From Staphylospora marina (GTDB lineage: Bacteria > Bacillota > Bacilli > Thermoactinomycetales > Thermoactinomycetaceae): a DNA stretch of 64,000 bases. A model generated the notes under the pieces. That model was given only the letters and a program-made list of their open reading frames with translations. It did no database searches and was not told where the DNA came from. The DNA is taken from NCBI RefSeq assembly GCF_003856495.1, contig NZ_CP034118.1:848001-912000 (forward strand), written 5' to 3'. How positions within the stretch are numbered: position 1 is the stretch's first letter; the number at the start of each line of letters is the position of its first letter. The translations under genes were made by a program, and so were the position numbers. This document shows, piece by piece, positions 24,560 to 63,371 of this stretch.

Positions 24560-24601
24560 CATTCACAGAATCAACTTCATATGGAATTCAACTCGCTGAC
24601 C

Positions 24602-24783
24602 GCGCGAATAGAGGTGCGGACTTCATCAGTACCTGTTTCGAGTTTTCGGGAACAATGAAGAACAGGGAAAGGGAAGTTCCGCCGAAGTCTGCCCGAAGTC
24701 CCGGACGAAGGCAGGCTGGGGCCGCATCCGAACAGGACCGGCACTGTCACAAGAACCAGGGTTCTTGTGGAGCGCTATCCGCA
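24602..24783 (+). ncRNA. Lysine riboswitch (L box)
   Basis: The conserved L-box segments appear in order: AATAGAGGTGCGGACTTCAT near the 5' end, AGTACCTG, GCCGAAG, CTGGGGCCG, GGCACTGTCAC and GTGGAGCGCTATC. The two ends pair to form P1 (GCG-AATAG with CTATCCGC). Lysine binding should favour the terminator at 24815 and so lower lysC expression. It is directly upstream of aspartokinase, the classic target. Confidence 0.94.
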
Positions 24784-24814
24784 GGGAAGAGCGAGCTGGA
24801 GCATTTGTGCGGAC

Positions 24815-53592: not shown

Positions 53593-54858
53593 ATGGACAC
53601 CTGGCGTCGCAATTTCCTCATTTTGTGGACGGGTCAATTCGTGTCGATCAGCGGTTTGACGGTCATGGTGCCGCTCATGCCGCTGTTCATCGAAGAGTTG
53701 ACGGGTACAAGCGGAGAGGCGGCTGCCTGGTGGACGGGAGTCTGTTTGGCGGCTCCGGCCGTCACTTCGTTGTTCTGTGCTCCCTTGTGGGGGAGGTTGG
53801 GGGATGAATGGGGCCGGAAGTGGATGGTGGTTCGGGCATTGGGGGGACTGGTGATCAGTCTGGCGTTGATGGGATTTTGCCGGTCCCCTTGGCAATTTTT
53901 GCTGTGCCGGCTGTTTCAGGGAGCGTGCGGCGGGGTGGTGGACGCGGCGGCCGCGTTTGCCGGTTCCGAAGCTCCGCCGGAACGGAAAGGGCAGGTGCTC
54001 GGCCGGCTGAATGCGGCCACGGCGGCCGGTTCGGTGCTGGGGCCGTTGATGGGGGGCATGCTGGCGGACCTGGCGGGATTTCGCAGTCTGTTCTTCATCA
54101 TGGCCGCACTGACGGGCGTTTTGACCGTCACCGCCGCATGTTTTCTTCGGGAAACGAACATCGTCCGTCAGAGGGAGTCTCAAGAAAAAAGCGCCGTTCG
54201 CCCGTTGAAAGAAGCTTGGCTTTCATTGGTTCGCCACCGCGAAACAAGGGCGTTTCTCTGCGGAGGCGTGTTCGCACAGGCGGGGATTTACGGCGTTACC
54301 GCGGTATTCGCCCTTCACGTGGCGGCTCTTTCCGGAGACTCTTCCATGGCGGCCACTTGGGTGGGGCTGTTGCAAGCCGTCACTTGGCTCTCCGTGATGG
54401 TTGCTTCGCCGTGGTGGGGGAAACGAAATGACACGAAGCCGGTGCATGTCTCCTTTGTTTGGGCGGCACTCGGTTGCGGAATCAGCGTCATGATCCAGGC
54501 ATGGGTGACGGACGTGGGTTGGTTGGTTCCGCTGAGAATGGTGCAAGGTGCTTTGTTTTCCGCACTGATCCCATCCGTGTTTTGCCAGATTTGTCGCAGC
54601 GGGGATCCTCGCCTGCACGGAACGAGAGTGGGACTGGCCAACAGCTGCCTGACGGGAGGACAAATCCAGGGATCGCTGCTGGCTTCCGCGTGTCTGGTCA
54701 CCCTTTCCACTCCATGGGTGCTCATGGTCATGGGCGGTTTGTTCATCGTCGGAGCGGCTTGGGTGGCTGTCGGAAAGATCCCACAGGCGGACAGCGGGAG
54801 GAGTTGTCCTGCCGTGCATGCGTTCACGGGAGAAACGTCGGAAGGACAGACAGGTTGA
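53593..54858 (+). CDS. sbnD: MFS siderophore exporter SbnD
   Basis: The 421-residue protein has about 12 membrane segments. The loop between segments 2 and 3 carries LWGRLGDEWGRKWMVV, the MFS motif A. A second loop in the C-terminal half reads WWGKRNDTKPVH. In S. aureus the gene at this position exports staphyloferrin B. It begins one base after the sbnC stop, preceded by GGAGGAGCGG. Export of the product is inferred from position in the operon. Confidence 0.92.
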   Translation: MDTWRRNFLILWTGQFVSISGLTVMVPLMPLFIEELTGTSGEAAAWWTGVCLAAPAVTSLFCAPLWGRLGDEWGRKWMVVRALGGLVISLALMGFCRSPWQFLLCRLFQGACGGVVDAAAAFAGSEAPPERKGQVLGRLNAATAAGSVLGPLMGGMLADLAGFRSLFFIMAALTGVLTVTAACFLRETNIVRQRESQEKSAVRPLKEAWLSLVRHRETRAFLCGGVFAQAGIYGVTAVFALHVAALSGDSSMAATWVGLLQAVTWLSVMVASPWWGKRNDTKPVHVSFVWAALGCGISVMIQAWVTDVGWLVPLRMVQGALFSALIPSVFCQICRSGDPRLHGTRVGLANSCLTGGQIQGSLLASACLVTLSTPWVLMVMGGLFIVGAAWVAVGKIPQADSGRSCPAVHAFTGETSEGQTG

Positions 54859-54875
54859 AAGGGGAGGAGCGGAAC

Positions 54876-56633
54876 ATGAGGCGGCAGTGGCGCCGGATCG
54901 CGGAGCGTCAGACGCTGGAGCGGTTGTTGAACACCTATTTGAGAGAAAAGGGAGACGGATTGTGCACGGAGGAGACTCTGGACGCCTCCGCGGGCAAATC
55001 GGGCCGGTTTACGATCCTTCTTCCCCGGCAGCACAAACGGATTCACGGAACGTTTGCCCATTTCTCGCCGTTCGGCCATCACCGGTATGAAGATGCATTC
55101 GCCGTCAGCGGGGAAGGAGAGGAATCGGTTCCCGCGGAGTCGTGGAAGCAGGTGGCTGTCCTGTTGCTGGACGAGATCCGGGACGAATCGGAGGAGAAGC
55201 AGCGGGATGCATTGCTTCACCAGATGGAAAACAGCATCGACAAGACTGCGGTGTATCTGGGGAGAGCGGACGAGAAGAAGGACGAAGACTGGATGATGCT
55301 TCCGGACGGCGAGCGGTCTCGCCGGGCGGAGCAGCGTCTGCTGTTCGGCCATCCGTTCCATCCCACCCCGAAGAGCTCCGAAGGGTTCGGCCCGGAAGAT
55401 CTGGAGCAATACGCCCCGGAAATGGAGGCCTCCTTTCCGCTGGTGTGGGTGGCGGTGCATCCGGAATGGATTCGGGAGGAACGGGTGGACGGGGAAAACC
55501 CCGCCGATGAAGCGATGTTCCCCGCGGATGTGAGAGAGGAAGCGGCTCTTCTTCTCGCCAAGGGGTACCGTCTGTTTCCGATCCATCCGTGGCAGGCCGG
55601 ATATCTGGAGCGCGATGCGGTCTTTCAAAAGGCGCTCGAACACGGAGCGATCGTTCGCCTGAAGCAGGGCGGCCCCTTGGTTTCTCCCACGTCTTCCGTC
55701 CGGACGGTATTCAGTCCGGAACTGCCGTGGTCCCTGAAACTTCCGCTTCATGTGCGCATCACGCATTTCGTCCGGGAGAATACCCCGGAGCAGATCCGAC
55801 GTTCGCTGGATGCGAGCCGGGTGATCCGGAAGTTCCGGCGACAATGGCCCTGTCCATCCCTGACGGTGTTGACGGAGACCGGGGCACTTCAGATTTGCCC
55901 GCCCGATGCGCGGGATCGTGAAGTCTTTCCTGCGGCAAGCGCCAATGTGCTGTTCCGGGAAAATCCGGACCGGAACCGGCATGCCCCTCTGGTGGTGGCG
56001 GCTCTCCTGGAATGTGCACCGGGACGTTCGGAGCCTCCGCTGTTTTCGGCGATCCGGGAAGCGCTGAACCTGCCGGACGGGCCCGTTTTTGCAGAGGGAT
56101 TGGCCAAGTGGCTGGAAGCGTATGTGGAAGTGGCGGTCATCCCCGCGATTGAGCTGTTTGCGGAGACAGGAATCAGTTTGGAGGCACATGTGCAGAATTC
56201 CCTGATTCATTTGGAGAACGGCTGGCCGACCCATTTTTATGTGCGGGACATGGAAGGAGTCAGTATCAACCGGGAACATCCGGAGATTCGGAAAATCACC
56301 GGCGGGGTGATCCCCGTGAACAGCCCCGTGCTGTATGAGGAGCGGACGGCTTGGGAACGGCTTCAGTACTACCTGATCACCAATCATCTCGGGCATTTGA
56401 TCCATGTGCTGGCATATTACGGCGGTTGGGAAGAGTCCGCGGCCTGGATGGCGGTGAGGGAGAGATTGGAACGGCACCTTTCCCGCACCCCATCGCACCG
56501 GTCCGGGTGGTTCGACCGATTGCTGACGGAAGAGACCCTTGCGGCAAAGGCCAACCTGGTGAGCCGCTTGCAGAATCGGTCTGACAATGCCGTTTACATT
56601 CGTGTGCCCAATCTGTTGAAACGGGAGAGGTGA
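54876..56633 (+). CDS. sbnE: IucA/IucC family siderophore synthetase SbnE
   Basis: SbnE couples citrate to the first diaminopropionate in the S. aureus pathway. The motifs are FGHPFHPTPKSSEGF (about residue 160), PIHPWQAGYLE, SPTSSVRTVF and SLKLPLHVRITHFVREN. The C-terminal half has LEAHVQNSLIHLE. The 585 residues match SbnE. The ATG at 54876 follows GGGGAGGAG; a longer frame overlaps sbnD out of frame. It lies 17 bases after sbnD and 7 before sbnF. Confidence 0.91.
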   Translation: MRRQWRRIAERQTLERLLNTYLREKGDGLCTEETLDASAGKSGRFTILLPRQHKRIHGTFAHFSPFGHHRYEDAFAVSGEGEESVPAESWKQVAVLLLDEIRDESEEKQRDALLHQMENSIDKTAVYLGRADEKKDEDWMMLPDGERSRRAEQRLLFGHPFHPTPKSSEGFGPEDLEQYAPEMEASFPLVWVAVHPEWIREERVDGENPADEAMFPADVREEAALLLAKGYRLFPIHPWQAGYLERDAVFQKALEHGAIVRLKQGGPLVSPTSSVRTVFSPELPWSLKLPLHVRITHFVRENTPEQIRRSLDASRVIRKFRRQWPCPSLTVLTETGALQICPPDARDREVFPAASANVLFRENPDRNRHAPLVVAALLECAPGRSEPPLFSAIREALNLPDGPVFAEGLAKWLEAYVEVAVIPAIELFAETGISLEAHVQNSLIHLENGWPTHFYVRDMEGVSINREHPEIRKITGGVIPVNSPVLYEERTAWERLQYYLITNHLGHLIHVLAYYGGWEESAAWMAVRERLERHLSRTPSHRSGWFDRLLTEETLAAKANLVSRLQNRSDNAVYIRVPNLLKRER

Positions 56634-56640
56634 AAGCGGA

Positions 56641-58470
56641 ATGAACGGAGAGTGGCTGGATCTGGCGGATCAGGCGATTCGCTCGGAAGAATCCGTTCGC
56701 GTGCGAAGAAGAATCTTTCGCCAGTTGGTGGAATCGATGGTGTATGAAGGCATCGTTCCCTGTCAGGAAGAGCCGGTCGGTAACGACGGAATCTCCCTCT
56801 TCCGTCTGGAGGGGGAATCCGGAGGACGGCCTGTCACTTATACCTTCCGGGCGCGGCGGTGCTTCACGTTCGGACGGATCCGGTTGACGGATGAGGCGGT
56901 GATGCGTCGTTGTGGCGAAGAGGAGCGGGAAGTCGTTTCCATCCGGCAGTTTCTGCTTGAAATCGCGCCGCTTTCGGGGGTGGACCGGGAACGGCTGATC
57001 CGCTTCATCCATGAGCTGGAAGAGACTTGGTTCAAGGACACGGTGGCCCAATACGTGAAGCGGAAAGAAAACAAACGGCTGGGAGATGAACCGTTTGCCC
57101 GTCTGGAACAACATGTGATGGACGGACATACGTATCATCCTTCCTACAAATCGCGCATCGGGTTTGACATGGAAGAGAACATTCGGTTCGGACCGGAATT
57201 TTCCCGCCCCGTCCGGCCGGTGTGGCTGGCCGTGAGCCGCAAACATGCGATTCTCTCGTTCAGCCGTTCCATCCCTGACGTCAGAAAGTGGTTGTTCCGG
57301 GAAGCGGGGGAAACGGTCTCCGCCATGTTTCGGAGCAAAATCCGGGAATCGGGGTTGGATCCGGAAGATTATGTCCCGGTTCCGGTGCATCCGTGGCAAT
57401 GGAAGACGAGCATTCTGCCCCGCCTGCAGGATTCGCTTCACGCCCGGGAGATCCTGCTCATCAGGGAATCGGAGGACGAATACGGAGCGCAACAATCGAT
57501 CCGCACCCTGACCAATTTGAGTTCTCCGCACAAGCCATGGGTCAAATTGTCCATGAGTCTCGTGAACACCTCGACCGGACGCGTTCTGGCCCCGCACACC
57601 GTCCGCAACGCCGCGCCCGTGTCCGACTGGCTCGACGGATTGGTCAAGGAAGATCCGTTTCTTCGCGATGATCTCCGGCTCATCCTTCTGCGGGAAGTGG
57701 GCGGAATCTCCTGGGATCCGCCGGTGCCCGAGGAGTTTCAAAGCGAGGTGTACGGCGTGATCGGATGCATTTGGCGGGAAAGCCTGGAGCCGCTGCTGGA
57801 AGACGGTGAACGGGCGGTCCCGTTCAACATCCTCACGGCCGTCGATGTGGACGGCAAACCGTTCATCCACCCGCTTGTCGGGAAAGTCGGACTGGAAGAA
57901 TGGGTCCGGCGGCTTCTTCGCGTCAGCGTGTGGCCGATTCTTCACTTCCTGGTGGCACACGGAGTGGCACTCGAATCACACGCTCAAAACATGGTGCTGG
58001 TTCTCAAGGACGGCTTGCCGCACCGGTTGGCGCTGAAAGATTTCCACGACGGCATCCGTTTTTCCCGGCGTTTCTTGAGCAAGCCGCAGAAATGCCCGCC
58101 GCTGGCCAAGACGCCCGAGATTCACGCCCGCGTCAATCGAAATTCGTTCATTGAAACCGACCGGATCGATGAGGTTCGCGATTTCGTGATGGATGCCTTC
58201 TTTTTCATCAACCTGGGGGAGTTGGCCCTGTTCCTGGACGAACGGTACGGCCTTGACGAGAAGAGCTTTTGGAAGCTGGCGGAGGAGGCGATCTGCGAAT
58301 ACCGGAACGCTTTTCCCGAATTTGAAGAGCGGTTTCGATGGTTTGACGTGTTCGGTGACACCATCCGGGTGGAACAGCTGACCAAGCGCCGGCTTTTTCC
58401 GGAGACGGAGCTGCGGGTCCACTCGGTGCCCAATCCGCTGGCGAAGGTGTGTGAGGGGGAAGGACGATGA
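56641..58470 (+). CDS. sbnF: IucA/IucC family siderophore synthetase SbnF
   Basis: SbnF adds the second diamine to the decarboxylated citryl intermediate in the known pathway. It shows DGHTYHPSYKSRIGFD (about residue 160), VPVHPWQWKTSIL, AQQSIRTLTN, WVKLSMSLVNTSTGR and SHAQNMVLVL with KDFHDG near the C-terminus. The 609 residues are slightly longer than S. aureus SbnF. ACGGGAGAGG precedes the ATG. Its stop overlaps the sbnG start by four bases. Confidence 0.91.
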   Translation: MNGEWLDLADQAIRSEESVRVRRRIFRQLVESMVYEGIVPCQEEPVGNDGISLFRLEGESGGRPVTYTFRARRCFTFGRIRLTDEAVMRRCGEEEREVVSIRQFLLEIAPLSGVDRERLIRFIHELEETWFKDTVAQYVKRKENKRLGDEPFARLEQHVMDGHTYHPSYKSRIGFDMEENIRFGPEFSRPVRPVWLAVSRKHAILSFSRSIPDVRKWLFREAGETVSAMFRSKIRESGLDPEDYVPVPVHPWQWKTSILPRLQDSLHAREILLIRESEDEYGAQQSIRTLTNLSSPHKPWVKLSMSLVNTSTGRVLAPHTVRNAAPVSDWLDGLVKEDPFLRDDLRLILLREVGGISWDPPVPEEFQSEVYGVIGCIWRESLEPLLEDGERAVPFNILTAVDVDGKPFIHPLVGKVGLEEWVRRLLRVSVWPILHFLVAHGVALESHAQNMVLVLKDGLPHRLALKDFHDGIRFSRRFLSKPQKCPPLAKTPEIHARVNRNSFIETDRIDEVRDFVMDAFFFINLGELALFLDERYGLDEKSFWKLAEEAICEYRNAFPEFEERFRWFDVFGDTIRVEQLTKRRLFPETELRVHSVPNPLAKVCEGEGR

Positions 58471-59267
58471 GGTTCGTGAACAAGACCTGGAAGTCCATTC
58501 GGGACGGAAAGCCGGTATTCGGCCTGTTCTGCTCCAATCCCTCTCCGTTGACCGTGGAAATGATCGGAGCGGCCGGGTATGATTTCGTGATTCTGGACAT
58601 GGAACACACCCTGATGAGTCCGGACACCCTCCAACACATGATCCGGGCAGCGGAATCGTTCGGGATCACGCCGCTGGTCCGCATTCCGGAGCGGTCGCCG
58701 GCCCTTTTGCTCCAGGTGCTGGATGCCGGCGCGCAGGGAGTGGTCATCCCTCATGTGAGGGGGCGGGAAGACGTGGAACAGGCGGTAGAAAACTGTTTCT
58801 ATCCACCGAAAGGAACACGCAGTCTGAACGGCGGACGGAATGCGGCCTTCGGCGGCATTCCGTTGTTGGAAGCGATGGAAAGGGCCAACCGGGAAGTGAT
58901 GTGCATCCCGATGATCGAGGACCGGGAAGGCGTGGAAAACATCGATGAAATTCTCGAAGTGGACGGGATCAGTTTCGTGCTGGAGGGAGCGGCGGACCTT
59001 TCCGCTTCATACGGCGTCCCGTGGAAAACGGACCATCCGCTTGTGAAAAACGCCCTGTCGCACGTGTGGGAACGGGCGGACCGGGCGGGGGTGCCGTTCT
59101 GCGCCATCCCCAGAAACCGCGAACAAATGAGCATGTGGTGGAACCGGGGTGTGCGTGTGTTTGTTCTGGGAGATGACCGCGGAATCGCTTATCGGGCGAT
59201 GAAAGCCCATTTGGAACAGAATCTTTCGGAAATCACGGTGATCGGACATGAACAAGCGACTGACTGA
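58467..59267 (+). CDS. sbnG: Citrate synthase of the HpcH/HpaI aldolase family SbnG
   Basis: SbnG condenses acetyl-CoA and oxaloacetate to make citrate for the siderophore, independent of the TCA enzyme. The fold signatures are FGLFCSNPSPLTVEMIGAAG, FVILDMEHTLMSPDTL (metal-binding Glu nearby) and GAQGVVIPHVRGREDV. ISFVLEGAADLSASYGVPW holds the second metal ligand region. The 266 residues match SbnG. The gene overlaps sbnF by four bases and sbnH by 20. Confidence 0.92.
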   Translation: MRFVNKTWKSIRDGKPVFGLFCSNPSPLTVEMIGAAGYDFVILDMEHTLMSPDTLQHMIRAAESFGITPLVRIPERSPALLLQVLDAGAQGVVIPHVRGREDVEQAVENCFYPPKGTRSLNGGRNAAFGGIPLLEAMERANREVMCIPMIEDREGVENIDEILEVDGISFVLEGAADLSASYGVPWKTDHPLVKNALSHVWERADRAGVPFCAIPRNREQMSMWWNRGVRVFVLGDDRGIAYRAMKAHLEQNLSEITVIGHEQATD

Positions 59268-60474
59268 AGCCGTCATCAGCCGCTTCCGGAATCAGGAAGG
59301 GCCGGTTTGCGCGTTTGTCTACGACCTGGACCATCTGCACCGGCACGTGCGAAAGGTCATGGAGCTGTTGCCGGAACGCTGCGAAATGTATTACGCCATG
59401 AAAGCCAATTCCGAGCGTCCCGTCCTTGAAACGCTGGCTCCCCTCGTTCACGGCTTTGAAGTGGCTTCCGGCGGGGAGATCCGAAAGGCGCGGGAAGCGG
59501 GGGAAACCATCCCGGTCATTTTCGGGGGTCCCGGCAAGACGGACGAGGAACTGGAAAAAGCGATCCGCATGCGGGTCTCCCTGATTCATGCGGAGAGTTT
59601 GCACGAGCTCCGTCGTTTGGCCCATCTCGCCCAGAAACTTGACGGAGAAGTCCGGGTGCTGCTTCGGGTCAACCTGGCCGGCCCGTTTCCGGCAGGAGCC
59701 ACCTTGCACATGGCCGGTCGGCCCACCGCTTTCGGCATCGACGAGCGGGACGTGCCGACCGTGCTGGAAGAACTGAAACGCTTTCGGCGGGTGCGGCTGG
59801 AAGGATTCCATTTTCACTCGGTGTCCAATCACCTGCAGGAAGAGACGCATTTGCAGGTGATCCGTCACTACATGAGCAAAGCGAAGAGGTGGGCGAAGGA
59901 GCATGGTCTGGCGCTCACCCGGTTGAATGCCGGCGGCGGCATCGGGGTCAATTACCGCGAGCTTGACAACCAATTCGATTGGGCGACCTTTTGCTCCGGT
60001 TTGGGTGAGCTCATTGAGCGGGAACTTCCGGAAACCTGGACCCTCATGTTTGAGTGCGGCCGGTTCCTCACCGCTTCCTGCGGCGTGTACGCAACGGAAG
60101 TCATCGATCTCAAATCGAACCACGGGGAAACGTTTGCGATCATTCGGGGAGGCACCCACCATTTCCGGCTGCCCGCTTCCTGGCAACACAATCACCCGTT
60201 TGAGGTGGTGCCGGTCGAGAAGTGGAACCGTCCGTTCCCTCGCAAAGAAATCAGGGAAGAGCCCGTCACCGTGGTGGGGCAGCTGTGCACTCCGAAAGAT
60301 ACGCTGGCGAGGAACGTGCCGGTCGGGCGCCTGCGGATCGGCGACCTGATCGTTTTCCAATATGCCGGTGCCTACGGATGGGCCATTTCGCATCATGATT
60401 TTCTCAGCCATCCTCATCCGGACCACGTCTGGCTTCCGGTGGAACGGAGGGAAGCAGACCGTGAATCTGTCTGA
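59248..60474 (+). CDS. sbnH: PLP-dependent decarboxylase SbnH
   Basis: SbnH is a fold-III decarboxylase that removes CO2 from the citryl-diaminopropionate intermediate. The PLP Lys lies in EMYYAMKANSERPVL (about residue 52). The phosphate site fits NAGGGIGVNYRELD, and the partner active-site Cys fits VGQLCTPKDTL. The 408 residues match S. aureus SbnH. It begins 20 bases before the end of sbnG, and its own end overlaps sbnI. Confidence 0.93.
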   Translation: MNKRLTEAVISRFRNQEGPVCAFVYDLDHLHRHVRKVMELLPERCEMYYAMKANSERPVLETLAPLVHGFEVASGGEIRKAREAGETIPVIFGGPGKTDEELEKAIRMRVSLIHAESLHELRRLAHLAQKLDGEVRVLLRVNLAGPFPAGATLHMAGRPTAFGIDERDVPTVLEELKRFRRVRLEGFHFHSVSNHLQEETHLQVIRHYMSKAKRWAKEHGLALTRLNAGGGIGVNYRELDNQFDWATFCSGLGELIERELPETWTLMFECGRFLTASCGVYATEVIDLKSNHGETFAIIRGGTHHFRLPASWQHNHPFEVVPVEKWNRPFPRKEIREEPVTVVGQLCTPKDTLARNVPVGRLRIGDLIVFQYAGAYGWAISHHDFLSHPHPDHVWLPVERREADRESV

Positions 60475-61237
60475 GTCATTGAAACGGATCCGGACCGAAG
60501 AGCTCCGGTTGCACGAAGCTCACGAACCGTGTCGCCTGGAAAAGACGGCGGCCGACATCCGGAGAGACGGCATGCTTCGTCATCCGGTCTTGGCTCTGGA
60601 TATCGGTGGCGGTTGGATGGTGGTGGACGGTGCTCACCGGTTGGAGTCCCTGAAAAAGCTTGGATGTGCGTTCGCTCCCGTGCAAGTACTCACTTTCGAA
60701 GCCCTGACACTTTCTTCATGGATCCACCAGGTTCCGGACGGGGATTGGCTGGACGAGTGGGTCCGGGCATCGGGATTGCGGGTTCTCACCGGTGACGAAA
60801 CGCCTGCCGGAGACGGACGGTGGAGCGTGACCTGGATGCGGCGGGGACAACGGTTCACCATCCGGTTGGATCAGGATGTCGAGCACGATGACCGGATTCC
60901 GCTGGAGCGTTGGCATCAGCTGGTGTCCGCTTATTCCCGCCGCTTTCCGGTGTGTCGTCTCACTCAATTTCCGGCGAACCCGGTTGAGTCGGAATTTGTT
61001 TGGATCCGTCATCCCGTCCGGACGCCGGAAGATCTGGTGGAAACGGTGAATCGGGGGGACGTGTTGCCGGCCGGTGTCACCCGGTTCCGCGTGGAAGGGC
61101 GAATCCTCAATCTCTGCGTTCCGCTCGCGCTGCTGGAAGATGACCCCCGGGTTGCCGCGGAGTGGGAGATGGCCCTTCGGCACTGGAGTCAACATGTCCG
61201 TGCGTATCATGAGAGCGTGTTGTTGTGTGAAGGATGA
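60461..61237 (+). CDS. sbnI: ParB-like serine kinase/regulator SbnI
   Basis: In S. aureus SbnI is a heme-responsive regulator and a free-serine kinase that supplies O-phosphoserine to SbnA. Here the ParB/sulfiredoxin-type domain (about residues 5-80) shows EKTAADIRRDGMLRHPVLAL and WMVVDGAHRLESLKKLG. The remaining part is less conserved. The 258 residues are close to SbnI. The GTG at 60461 follows GGAACGGAGGGAAG and overlaps sbnH by 14 bases. A terminator ends the operon. Confidence 0.88.
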   Translation: MNLSESLKRIRTEELRLHEAHEPCRLEKTAADIRRDGMLRHPVLALDIGGGWMVVDGAHRLESLKKLGCAFAPVQVLTFEALTLSSWIHQVPDGDWLDEWVRASGLRVLTGDETPAGDGRWSVTWMRRGQRFTIRLDQDVEHDDRIPLERWHQLVSAYSRRFPVCRLTQFPANPVESEFVWIRHPVRTPEDLVETVNRGDVLPAGVTRFRVEGRILNLCVPLALLEDDPRVAAEWEMALRHWSQHVRAYHESVLLCEG

Positions 61238-62025: not shown

Positions 62026-62070
62026 AAAAAAAAGAACAAGGCTCCGCTTTGGCCAAGCGGCGCCTTGTTC
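62026..62070 (-). terminator. Strong terminator of the tandem cloverleaf RNA
   Basis: On the minus strand GAACAAGGC and GCCTTGTTC form a 9-bp stem. A further CCGCTT/AAGCGG stem stacks inside, and eight T follow. It begins three bases after the second cloverleaf. Confidence 0.93.
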
Positions 62071-62209
62071 CGGTTGCGGGAAGGATTGGTTACCTTCATC
62101 TCCACCCTGCCAAGGTGACGCTTTGATTAAGCGACCGCAACGCACGGGGAGGATTGGGTACCTCCATCTCCCGCGGGAAAGGCGGGTATTCTGATTGAAC
62201 TACCGTGCG
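62026..62209 (-). ncRNA. Novel RNA of two abutting tRNA-like cloverleafs
   Basis: Unit 1 (62209-62141) and unit 2 (62141-62073) are each 69 nt. They share only the G at 62141. Both fold into a 7-bp acceptor-like stem, 2 linker bases, a 4-bp stem with loop AAUCA, one base, a 5-bp stem with a 7-base loop, linker AGAU, and a 5-bp stem with loop UACCCAAU or UAACCAAU. Stem sequences differ but pairing is kept, while the loops and linker are conserved. Two pairs (62188/62200 and 62102/62118) are G-U wobbles only on the minus strand. The D-type loop lacks GG, the T-type loop has 8 bases, and no CCA follows. I do not recognise the family. Confidence 0.8.
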
Positions 62210-62214
62210 TGAAT

Positions 62215-62243
62215 ATATTATCAAATCCTGATATATTTGTAAA
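62215..62243 (-). promoter_or_regulatory. Promoter of the tandem cloverleaf RNA
   Basis: On the minus strand TTTACA (62243-62238) is followed after 17 bases by TAATAT (62220-62215). Transcription should begin about 7 bases later, at 62208, the first base or two of the first cloverleaf. Confidence 0.8.
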
Positions 62244-62282: not shown

Positions 62283-63371
62283 ATGGAAGAAAAGCAACAA
62301 TCGCCGAAAATCAAGTGTTATGTTTGCAAGACCCCGCTGGATGAAGCGCATCCGGAGTATTCCAAGTTGTGCGTGGAATGCGGGGAGTTCAATGCATCGA
62401 AGCGGGATGCACGGCATGATTTGGAGGGATGGATCGCTCTGGTGACCGGCGGGCGGACCAAAATCGGGTACCACACCGCGCTCCGGTTGCTCAGGGATGG
62501 CGCACGGGTCATCGTGACCACCCGTTTTCCCCATGATGCCGCCCGCCGTTATCTGCAAGAACCGGATGCTCACCAGTGGCAGGACCGGCTTCGCATCCAT
62601 GGTCTGGATTTCCGGCAAATCGACCGGGTGGAGCAGTTTGCTCTTGCTCTGGACCGGGAGCTTCCGTGGTTGGATGTGATCATCAACAACGCCGCCCAAA
62701 CGGTGCGCATGCCGGAAGAAGAATACAGAGCCTTGGCCGCCGGGGAAGAGGCGATGAGGAAGCAACTTGCCGCAAGCGGTGTTCCGGCGCTGATGGCATC
62801 CGATTTTCCGGCTCCGAACGTGCAGAAAGAGGACAGGGAAGGGAGTGGCGGAGCGCTTGCCGTCTTGCCGTCCTCGTTGGAGTCCGGTGTTTTGCCTTAT
62901 CGTGGAACCGATGTCCATGCCTGGTATGCCCGCCCGGAACAGATCTCCCTCATGGAGATGCTGGAAGTGCAGTTGATCAACGTGACGGCTCCGTTTTTGC
63001 TCAATACCCGTCTGAAACCGGCCATGATGAGGAGCCCGCACCGAAACCGGTTTGTCGTCAACGTGTCGGCAATGGAAGGCAAGTTCAACATGAAACGGAA
63101 GGGTCGGTATCATGTTCACACCAACATGGCCAAAGCATCGCTCAACATGATGACCCTCACCATGGCACGGGAATACAAACGGGATCGGATCTTCATCACC
63201 AGCGTCGATCCGGGATGGGTGTCCAACCAGGTTCCGGACAAAAACATTCTTCCTCCCTTGACCATGGAAGACGCCGCGGCACGCGTCTGTGATCCGGTTT
63301 ATGAAGGGAAAGATGCGGAGCGTCCGTGGACGGGCGTGTTTCTCAAAGATTACCGGGTGATCGACTGGTGA
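62283..63371 (+). CDS. Zinc-ribbon/short-chain dehydrogenase fusion protein
   Basis: The 362-residue protein starts with a zinc-ribbon: CYVC (about residue 12) and CVEC (about residue 30). A short-chain dehydrogenase domain follows, with the dinucleotide motif ALVTGGRTKIGYHTALRLL and the active-site region IINNAAQTVR. Near the end VNVSAMEG carries the Ser, but the usual YxxxK reads TNMAK, so the catalytic Tyr is Thr at this alignment. A long insert (residues 145-230) separates the two regions. The ATG at 62283 follows AAAAGGAA. It is divergent from the cloverleaf RNA. The substrate is unknown. Confidence 0.8.
   Translation: MEEKQQSPKIKCYVCKTPLDEAHPEYSKLCVECGEFNASKRDARHDLEGWIALVTGGRTKIGYHTALRLLRDGARVIVTTRFPHDAARRYLQEPDAHQWQDRLRIHGLDFRQIDRVEQFALALDRELPWLDVIINNAAQTVRMPEEEYRALAAGEEAMRKQLAASGVPALMASDFPAPNVQKEDREGSGGALAVLPSSLESGVLPYRGTDVHAWYARPEQISLMEMLEVQLINVTAPFLLNTRLKPAMMRSPHRNRFVVNVSAMEGKFNMKRKGRYHVHTNMAKASLNMMTLTMAREYKRDRIFITSVDPGWVSNQVPDKNILPPLTMEDAAARVCDPVYEGKDAERPWTGVFLKDYRVIDW

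Follow-up and report, generated by a model that had tools for sequence, protein, structure and literature searches.

On the minus strand of the window (the whole stretch of 64,000 nucleotides of Staphylospora marina DNA analyzed here), two tRNA-like cloverleafs are fused end to end in one RNA with a promoter and a terminator of its own, and the divergent gene beside it encodes an SDR-like protein. A tRNA-derived RNA tied to one unusual SDR-like protein is found in at least five phyla, and also on a phage-like contig and near defense genes. This recurrence points to a previously undescribed mobile RNA–protein system; in the open-access literature, no description of a tRNA-like RNA paired with an SDR was found. 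To our knowledge, tRNA mimics active outside translation are few, and each has exposed an unexpected pathway. If confirmed, the pair would be a new RNA–protein system and would offer a means to study the cellular sensing of attacks on tRNA.

The tandem RNA and its divergent partner gene

Minus-strand positions 62243–62026 read as a promoter, then two abutting cloverleafs, then a terminator, as the original prediction described. The promoter (62243–62215) is of the sigma-70/sigma-A type, TTTACA-17-TAATAT, and is the only promoter-like site returned by the promoter scan in the region. In 12 of 13 tandem loci (promoter spacing 17–18), the −10 hexamer ends 7 nt ahead of the conserved acceptor motif; the RNA is therefore expected to begin right at that stem. 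Among the Bacilli loci, several genera share a ATCATAACATATG-like string in the −35/−10 spacer of the RNA promoter, possibly as an operator common to the RNA and the divergent SDR gene.

Both units are delimited by sequence, by fold, and by alignment with covariation. In unit 1 (62210–62141, minus strand), the acceptor stem pairs 62210–62203 with 62147–62141. It is followed by a D-like arm at 62200–62188 (loop AAUCA), an anticodon-like arm at 62186–62170 (loop CUUUCCC), and a T-like arm at 62165–62148 with the 8-nt loop UACCCAAU. Unit 2 (62141–62073, minus strand) abuts unit 1 directly and has the acceptor stem (G)UUGCGG/CCGCAA(C), a D-like arm at 62132–62120, an anticodon-like arm at 62118–62102 (loop UUGGCAG), and a T-like arm at 62097–62080 with the 8-nt loop UAACCAAU. 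The 3′ strand of unit 1 continues directly as the 5′ strand of unit 2; neither a discriminator nor a spacer intervenes. The intrinsic terminator (62070–62026, minus strand) is a long GC-rich hairpin (62070–62034) followed by U8; this minus-strand hairpin is absent from the automatic terminator scan and was read from sequence and fold. A hairpin and a U run also lie 3′ of unit 2 in relatives.

The predicted fold of the minus strand has an energy of −82.1 kcal/mol (z = −5.6), a value reached by 0 of 200 shuffles; the fold of the plus strand is weaker (z = −3.8). A count by eye agrees with the nine pairs predicted to change on both sides between the units (four in the acceptor, two in the D, two in the anticodon, and one in the T stem), and the two pairs said to be possible only as GoU on the minus strand are real. 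A plus-strand leader of the SDR gene is ruled out by these GoU pairs, the promoter, the terminator, and the relatives.

The units are tRNA homologues, as follows from the match of unit 2 to Rfam RF00005 (41.8 bits, gathering threshold 29) and from the ARAGORN call of unit 1 as tRNA-Glu(ttc). The Rfam match to unit 2 appears with lax filters and not with fast ones; unit 1 is not reported by the Rfam search of the region. Up to E = 10, that search returns no family besides tRNA, save a chance match to BSR0602 (17.6 bits vs. a threshold of 191 bits). The earlier statement that no RNA family fits thus stands for function and falls for homology. Among the 68 Rfam tRNA matches in the genome, unit 2 scores lowest and unit 1 is absent. 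As had been claimed for both units, the D loop lacks GG, the T loop has eight bases, and CCA is missing: both D loops are AATCA without G18G19, the T loops are TACCCAAT and TAACCAAT and not the 7-nt TTCRA, and CCA is encoded in all 57 ordinary tRNAs of this genome that could be read with their flanks. What is shared with tRNA is the cloverleaf, a U8–A9-like linker, and recognizable sequence homology; what differs is the lack of CCA and of the D-loop GG, the T loop (6–8 nt in Bacilli), the fused units or lengthened acceptor stems, and the variable anticodon. Judged by these sequence features, the units are homologous to tRNA but are no translation tRNAs.

The divergent partner gene (62283–63371, plus strand) is assigned by Pfam, a structure model, Foldseek, motif alignment, and co-occurrence with the RNA. 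Its protein has the Rossmann fold of SDRs (Pfam adh_short, E = 2.4e-20), and the model (pLDDT 79.5) matches FabG-like enzymes in Foldseek (E to 3e-12). Classical SDR enzymes share that fold but not the motifs. In 30 homologues, TGGRxKIG or a near variant replaces TGxxxGIG, and T280 occupies the position of the catalytic Tyr (HxHTNMAK) with K284 retained, so that only the Lys of the YxxxK pair is present. The partner itself has TGGRxKIG and HxHTNMAK, and also an N-terminal four-cysteine motif (C12, C15, C30, C33), which looks like a zinc ribbon. No PADLOC model matches the SDR. The original prediction did not cover this gene, the broad range of the pair, or how variable the anticodon loops are; the SDR-like protein is the obvious candidate for the putative binding partner of the RNA.

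Conservation and distribution of the pair

Pairing is conserved in relatives. The alignment comprises 13 tandem RNAs of this and other genera, eight from Thermoactinomycetales and five from Paenibacillus; 97.3% of the pair cells are standard, and two-sided changes occur in 18 of the 40 pairs. Covariation is 0.391 vs. 0.172 in shuffles (0 of 500 as high). Slid controls of the alignment are about half paired, and all are far below the true alignment. Covariation, synteny, and missing translation features together support the proposal that the locus specifies a dedicated, structured mimic of tRNA, bounded by a promoter and a terminator of its own.

A DNA search finds copies in other genera, and every clear copy adjoins a gene for the same SDR-like protein. 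The covariance model of the tandem RNA (R2), run over 399 Bacilli genomes, gives 123–156 bits in seven of them; the best score elsewhere is 73.8 bits, and the matches in the remaining genomes look like ordinary neighboring tRNAs. The SDR is present in exactly the seven RNA-bearing genomes. The chance of such an overlap is far below 1 in 10^12 if genomes are taken as independent, which is not a formal p-value because the genomes are related. Since the flanking genes vary among the Bacilli loci, the RNA and SDR genes behave as a cassette, and their partnership is well supported by the genomes compared. In Thermoactinomyces vulgaris (L047) and Kroppenstedtia guangzhouensis (L072), the tandem RNA is intact although the SDR gene is defective (a stop and a frameshift, or shortening to ∼191 aa); we count this against our best explanation. 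A decayed single tRNA-like unit with a terminator (L008, 1486–1595; R2 27 bits) occurs in a genome without the SDR (G029).

A scan of genome contigs yields 42 SDR loci in Bacillota, Actinomycetota, Ktedonobacteria (Chloroflexota), myxobacteria (Nannocystis, Polyangia), Albitalea (Pseudomonadota), and a flavobacterial MAG, to which a Deinococcus plasmid adds a further locus. The tRNA-like units adjoin the SDR gene in Actinomycetota, Ktedonobacteria, Albitalea, and Deinococcus, so that the pair extends to Bacillota, Actinomycetota, Chloroflexota, Deinococcota, and Pseudomonadota at least. ARAGORN tRNA matches have a 35-fold higher density within 700 nt of the SDR than in more distant sequence, and 22 of 46 SDR loci have one within that distance. 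Roughly half the SDR loci lack a detectable unit in their vicinity (mostly those of Streptomyces/Kitasatospora, Nannocystis, Arthrobacter, and Actinotalea); in these, loss of the RNA, a location elsewhere in the genome, or too great a divergence may be the reason. Annotation as tRNA conceals such non-tRNA genes, which ARAGORN names tRNA-Glu, -Ala, -Ser, or -Trp.

Outside Bacilli, the units have canonical-looking T loops and longer acceptor stems, mostly of 9–12 bp. All nine modeled acceptor pairs covary. At least two pairs past the normal seven are present in 19 of 23 units (three to five in 13 of those); ordinary tRNAs have zero to two such pairs, vs. up to five here. The model of the units outside Bacilli (R1) matches ordinary tRNAs at up to 74 bits and is therefore unusable for genome-wide counts of units.

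The anticodon loops are variable on a body that hardly changes. In 16 actinobacterial units, the anticodon loop has 1.44 bits per column vs. 0.05–0.44 in the D, variable, and T regions. Retention of U33 (12/16) and of a purine at 37 (10/16) is only partial, and the loops thus need not be seen as anticodons. Between the RNAs of P. tianmuensis and Paenibacillus sp. A3, seven of 14 loop positions differ, vs. one of 121 other positions; this excess of loop changes is strong in that one close pair and weaker or absent in other pairs. Several units with different anticodons can occur at one locus (Ala, Ser, Trp, and Gly in Kitasatospora phosalacinea). Ktedonobacteria bacterium brp13 has two SDR copies (L049/L050) ∼20 kb apart, at one of which the pair of tRNA-like units is duplicated.

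Possible roles of the RNA and related systems

The position of the RNA relative to the SDR gene varies by phylum. It is divergent in Bacilli, 5′ of the gene and codirectional with it in Actinomycetota, Albitalea, and Deinococcus, and 3′ of the gene in Ktedonobacteria. Action in trans alone is common to all these arrangements, and the RNA most likely acts in that way. We would give about an even chance to a two-gene RNA–protein cassette in which a tRNA mimic acts in trans and offers its anticodon-like loops as bait. From a single promoter, a leaderless and self-terminated RNA of two cloverleafs, fused acceptor to acceptor, would be made; the divergent gene would yield a zinc-ribbon-like protein of SDR fold without the usual catalytic Tyr. 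This protein would bind the tRNA-like RNA, whose conserved body would hold the complex. The variable anticodon-like loops would then be bait for enzymes recognizing the anticodon arms of tRNAs (tRNA-cleaving toxins or phage enzymes), and their engagement or cleavage would be sensed by the SDR protein, with LRR, ankyrin, and MoxR/VWA partners also taking part in other phyla. The sequences themselves establish the conserved structure, the SDR linkage, the missing translation features, the loop variability, and the carriage on a phage-like contig; transcription, RNA–protein binding, the bait role, and the defense function are our inferences. Bait loops are favored because they would explain why the ends are blocked, why the body stays constant and the loops change, and why the setting is mobile.

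Less probably, the RNA might be a plain cofactor or scaffold, or an amino-acid carrier. Human SDR5C1/MRPP2 is an SDR within mitochondrial RNase P, and the partner could be such an RNA-handling SDR, with the RNA as cofactor, guide, or scaffold and no bait role. The tight linkage of SDR to RNA agrees with this, as does the extension N-terminal of the cysteine motif in non-Bacilli SDRs, which is basic in five of the six checked (pI 7.0–11.2). Scaffolding alone would leave the variable anticodon loops unexplained, and we regard this alternative as unlikely.

An RNA charged by a host synthetase, with its amino acid serving as substrate for the SDR (compare glutamyl-tRNA reductase), would suit the oxidoreductase fold of the partner and the several loops readable as Glu or Ala anticodons. 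The ends of the RNA make this quite improbable: the CCA end is absent, the Bacilli units are fused without a discriminator, and, outside Bacilli, the 3′ end is usually buried in the longer stem. In addition, other anticodons read Ser, Trp, Cys, Asp, Gly, or Arg, and the partner has other residues at the catalytic Tyr and at the second Gly of TGxxxGIG.

A cis-regulatory leader of the SDR gene (a riboswitch, or a tRNA-like 5′ UTR such as yjdF) is suggested by Actinomycetota, Albitalea, and Deinococcus, where the final unit is only some tens of nucleotides 5′ of the SDR start codon, and tRNA-like leaders are able to act on translation (PMC9142559). It is very improbable nevertheless, with several units per locus, a position 3′ of the SDR in Ktedonobacteria, and, in Bacilli, an RNA that points away from the SDR gene and stops at its own terminator; past that terminator in the window, the next gene is on the opposite strand and convergent. 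The yjdF riboswitch resembles the present RNA as a tRNA-derived fold working outside translation (PMC9142559), but yjdF is a leader in cis and the present RNA is framed by a promoter and a terminator of its own.

That the units are ordinary, suppressor, or pseudogene tRNAs is hardly credible despite their homology (RF00005 scores of 41.8–56.8 bits), since both units covary, as do the nine acceptor pairs outside Bacilli, CCA is absent although the checked tRNAs of the genome encode it, and the match is the weakest tRNA match of the genome; for ordinary tRNA genes, the missing CCA, the fused units, and the covariation rule them out.

Bait loops on a tRNA mimic remain the preferred reading, and other tRNA mimics may be compared with it. 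In the bacterial Y RNA YrlA, a tRNA-like domain resembles the D, T, and acceptor arms, and a noncoding tRNA mimic likewise works with a dedicated protein, Ro60/Rsr (PMC8394870). Here, in contrast, the partner has an SDR fold and is not Ro, and two complete cloverleafs with anticodon arms are present. The window's RNA has no Rfam match to Y RNA, and its neighboring genes encode the SDR, DUF1028, and futalosine hydrolase, not Ro/TROVE. Bacterial Y RNA with Ro is, by analogy, the nearest system in working style, with its defining features absent here. Allo-tRNAs with 8/4 or 9/3 branches have a lengthened acceptor stem and unusual anticodons, as does the present RNA. Their acceptor and T branch has 12 bp, whereas most non-Bacilli units have 9–12 + 5 bp (14–17 bp in many of them) and the Bacilli units ∼11–13 bp; moreover, the present units adjoin one protein family.

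Genomic setting

One IMG/VR contig carries the RNA (149.5 bits) and the SDR gene between a DNA methyltransferase/ParB gene and the genes for a terminase small subunit and an integrase. Temperate phages often have cargo genes at such a site. SDR relatives occur in two IMG/VR contigs; among the INPHARED phage genome records, no SDR relative was found. At the end of an IMG/VR contig (L158), an SDR relative is followed by an LRR protein, and no tRNA-like unit was found there. In Thermoflavimicrobium daqui, the cassette lies near a Cas3-like gene and a CRISPR array; its neighborhood in Paenibacillus oralis includes a restriction-like helicase and a PADLOC candidate. The best reading of the genomes is that the cassette is mobile, and it is possibly anti-phage; the defense reading is drawn from three contexts and is not a statistical test.

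A gene for an LRR protein lies 3′ of the SDR in several Actinomycetota and in Albitalea. Farther on, in Actinomycetota, there are ankyrin, MoxR-type AAA, and DUF2201/VWA genes. In Nannocystis, by inspection, the SDR and an LRR-like stretch share one open frame. More tentatively, and with rather less than an even chance, these loci could form a new class of mobile, partly phage-borne immune RNA–protein systems. Non-translating tRNA mimics, in sets whose anticodon loops are interchangeable, would act as sensors of, or bait for, tRNA-targeting enzymes, and would be read by a degenerate SDR-fold protein and, in several phyla, also by LRR, ankyrin, and MoxR/VWA partners.

Elsewhere in the window, a lysine riboswitch is present at 24601–24785 on the plus strand (Rfam RF00168, 111.6 bits). 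Upstream of the RNA/SDR locus, positions 54459–61237 (plus strand) hold a probable siderophore biosynthesis cluster, recognized by IucA/IucC-like proteins (by inspection), a PLP decarboxylase, and an SbnI-like protein (NCBIfam).
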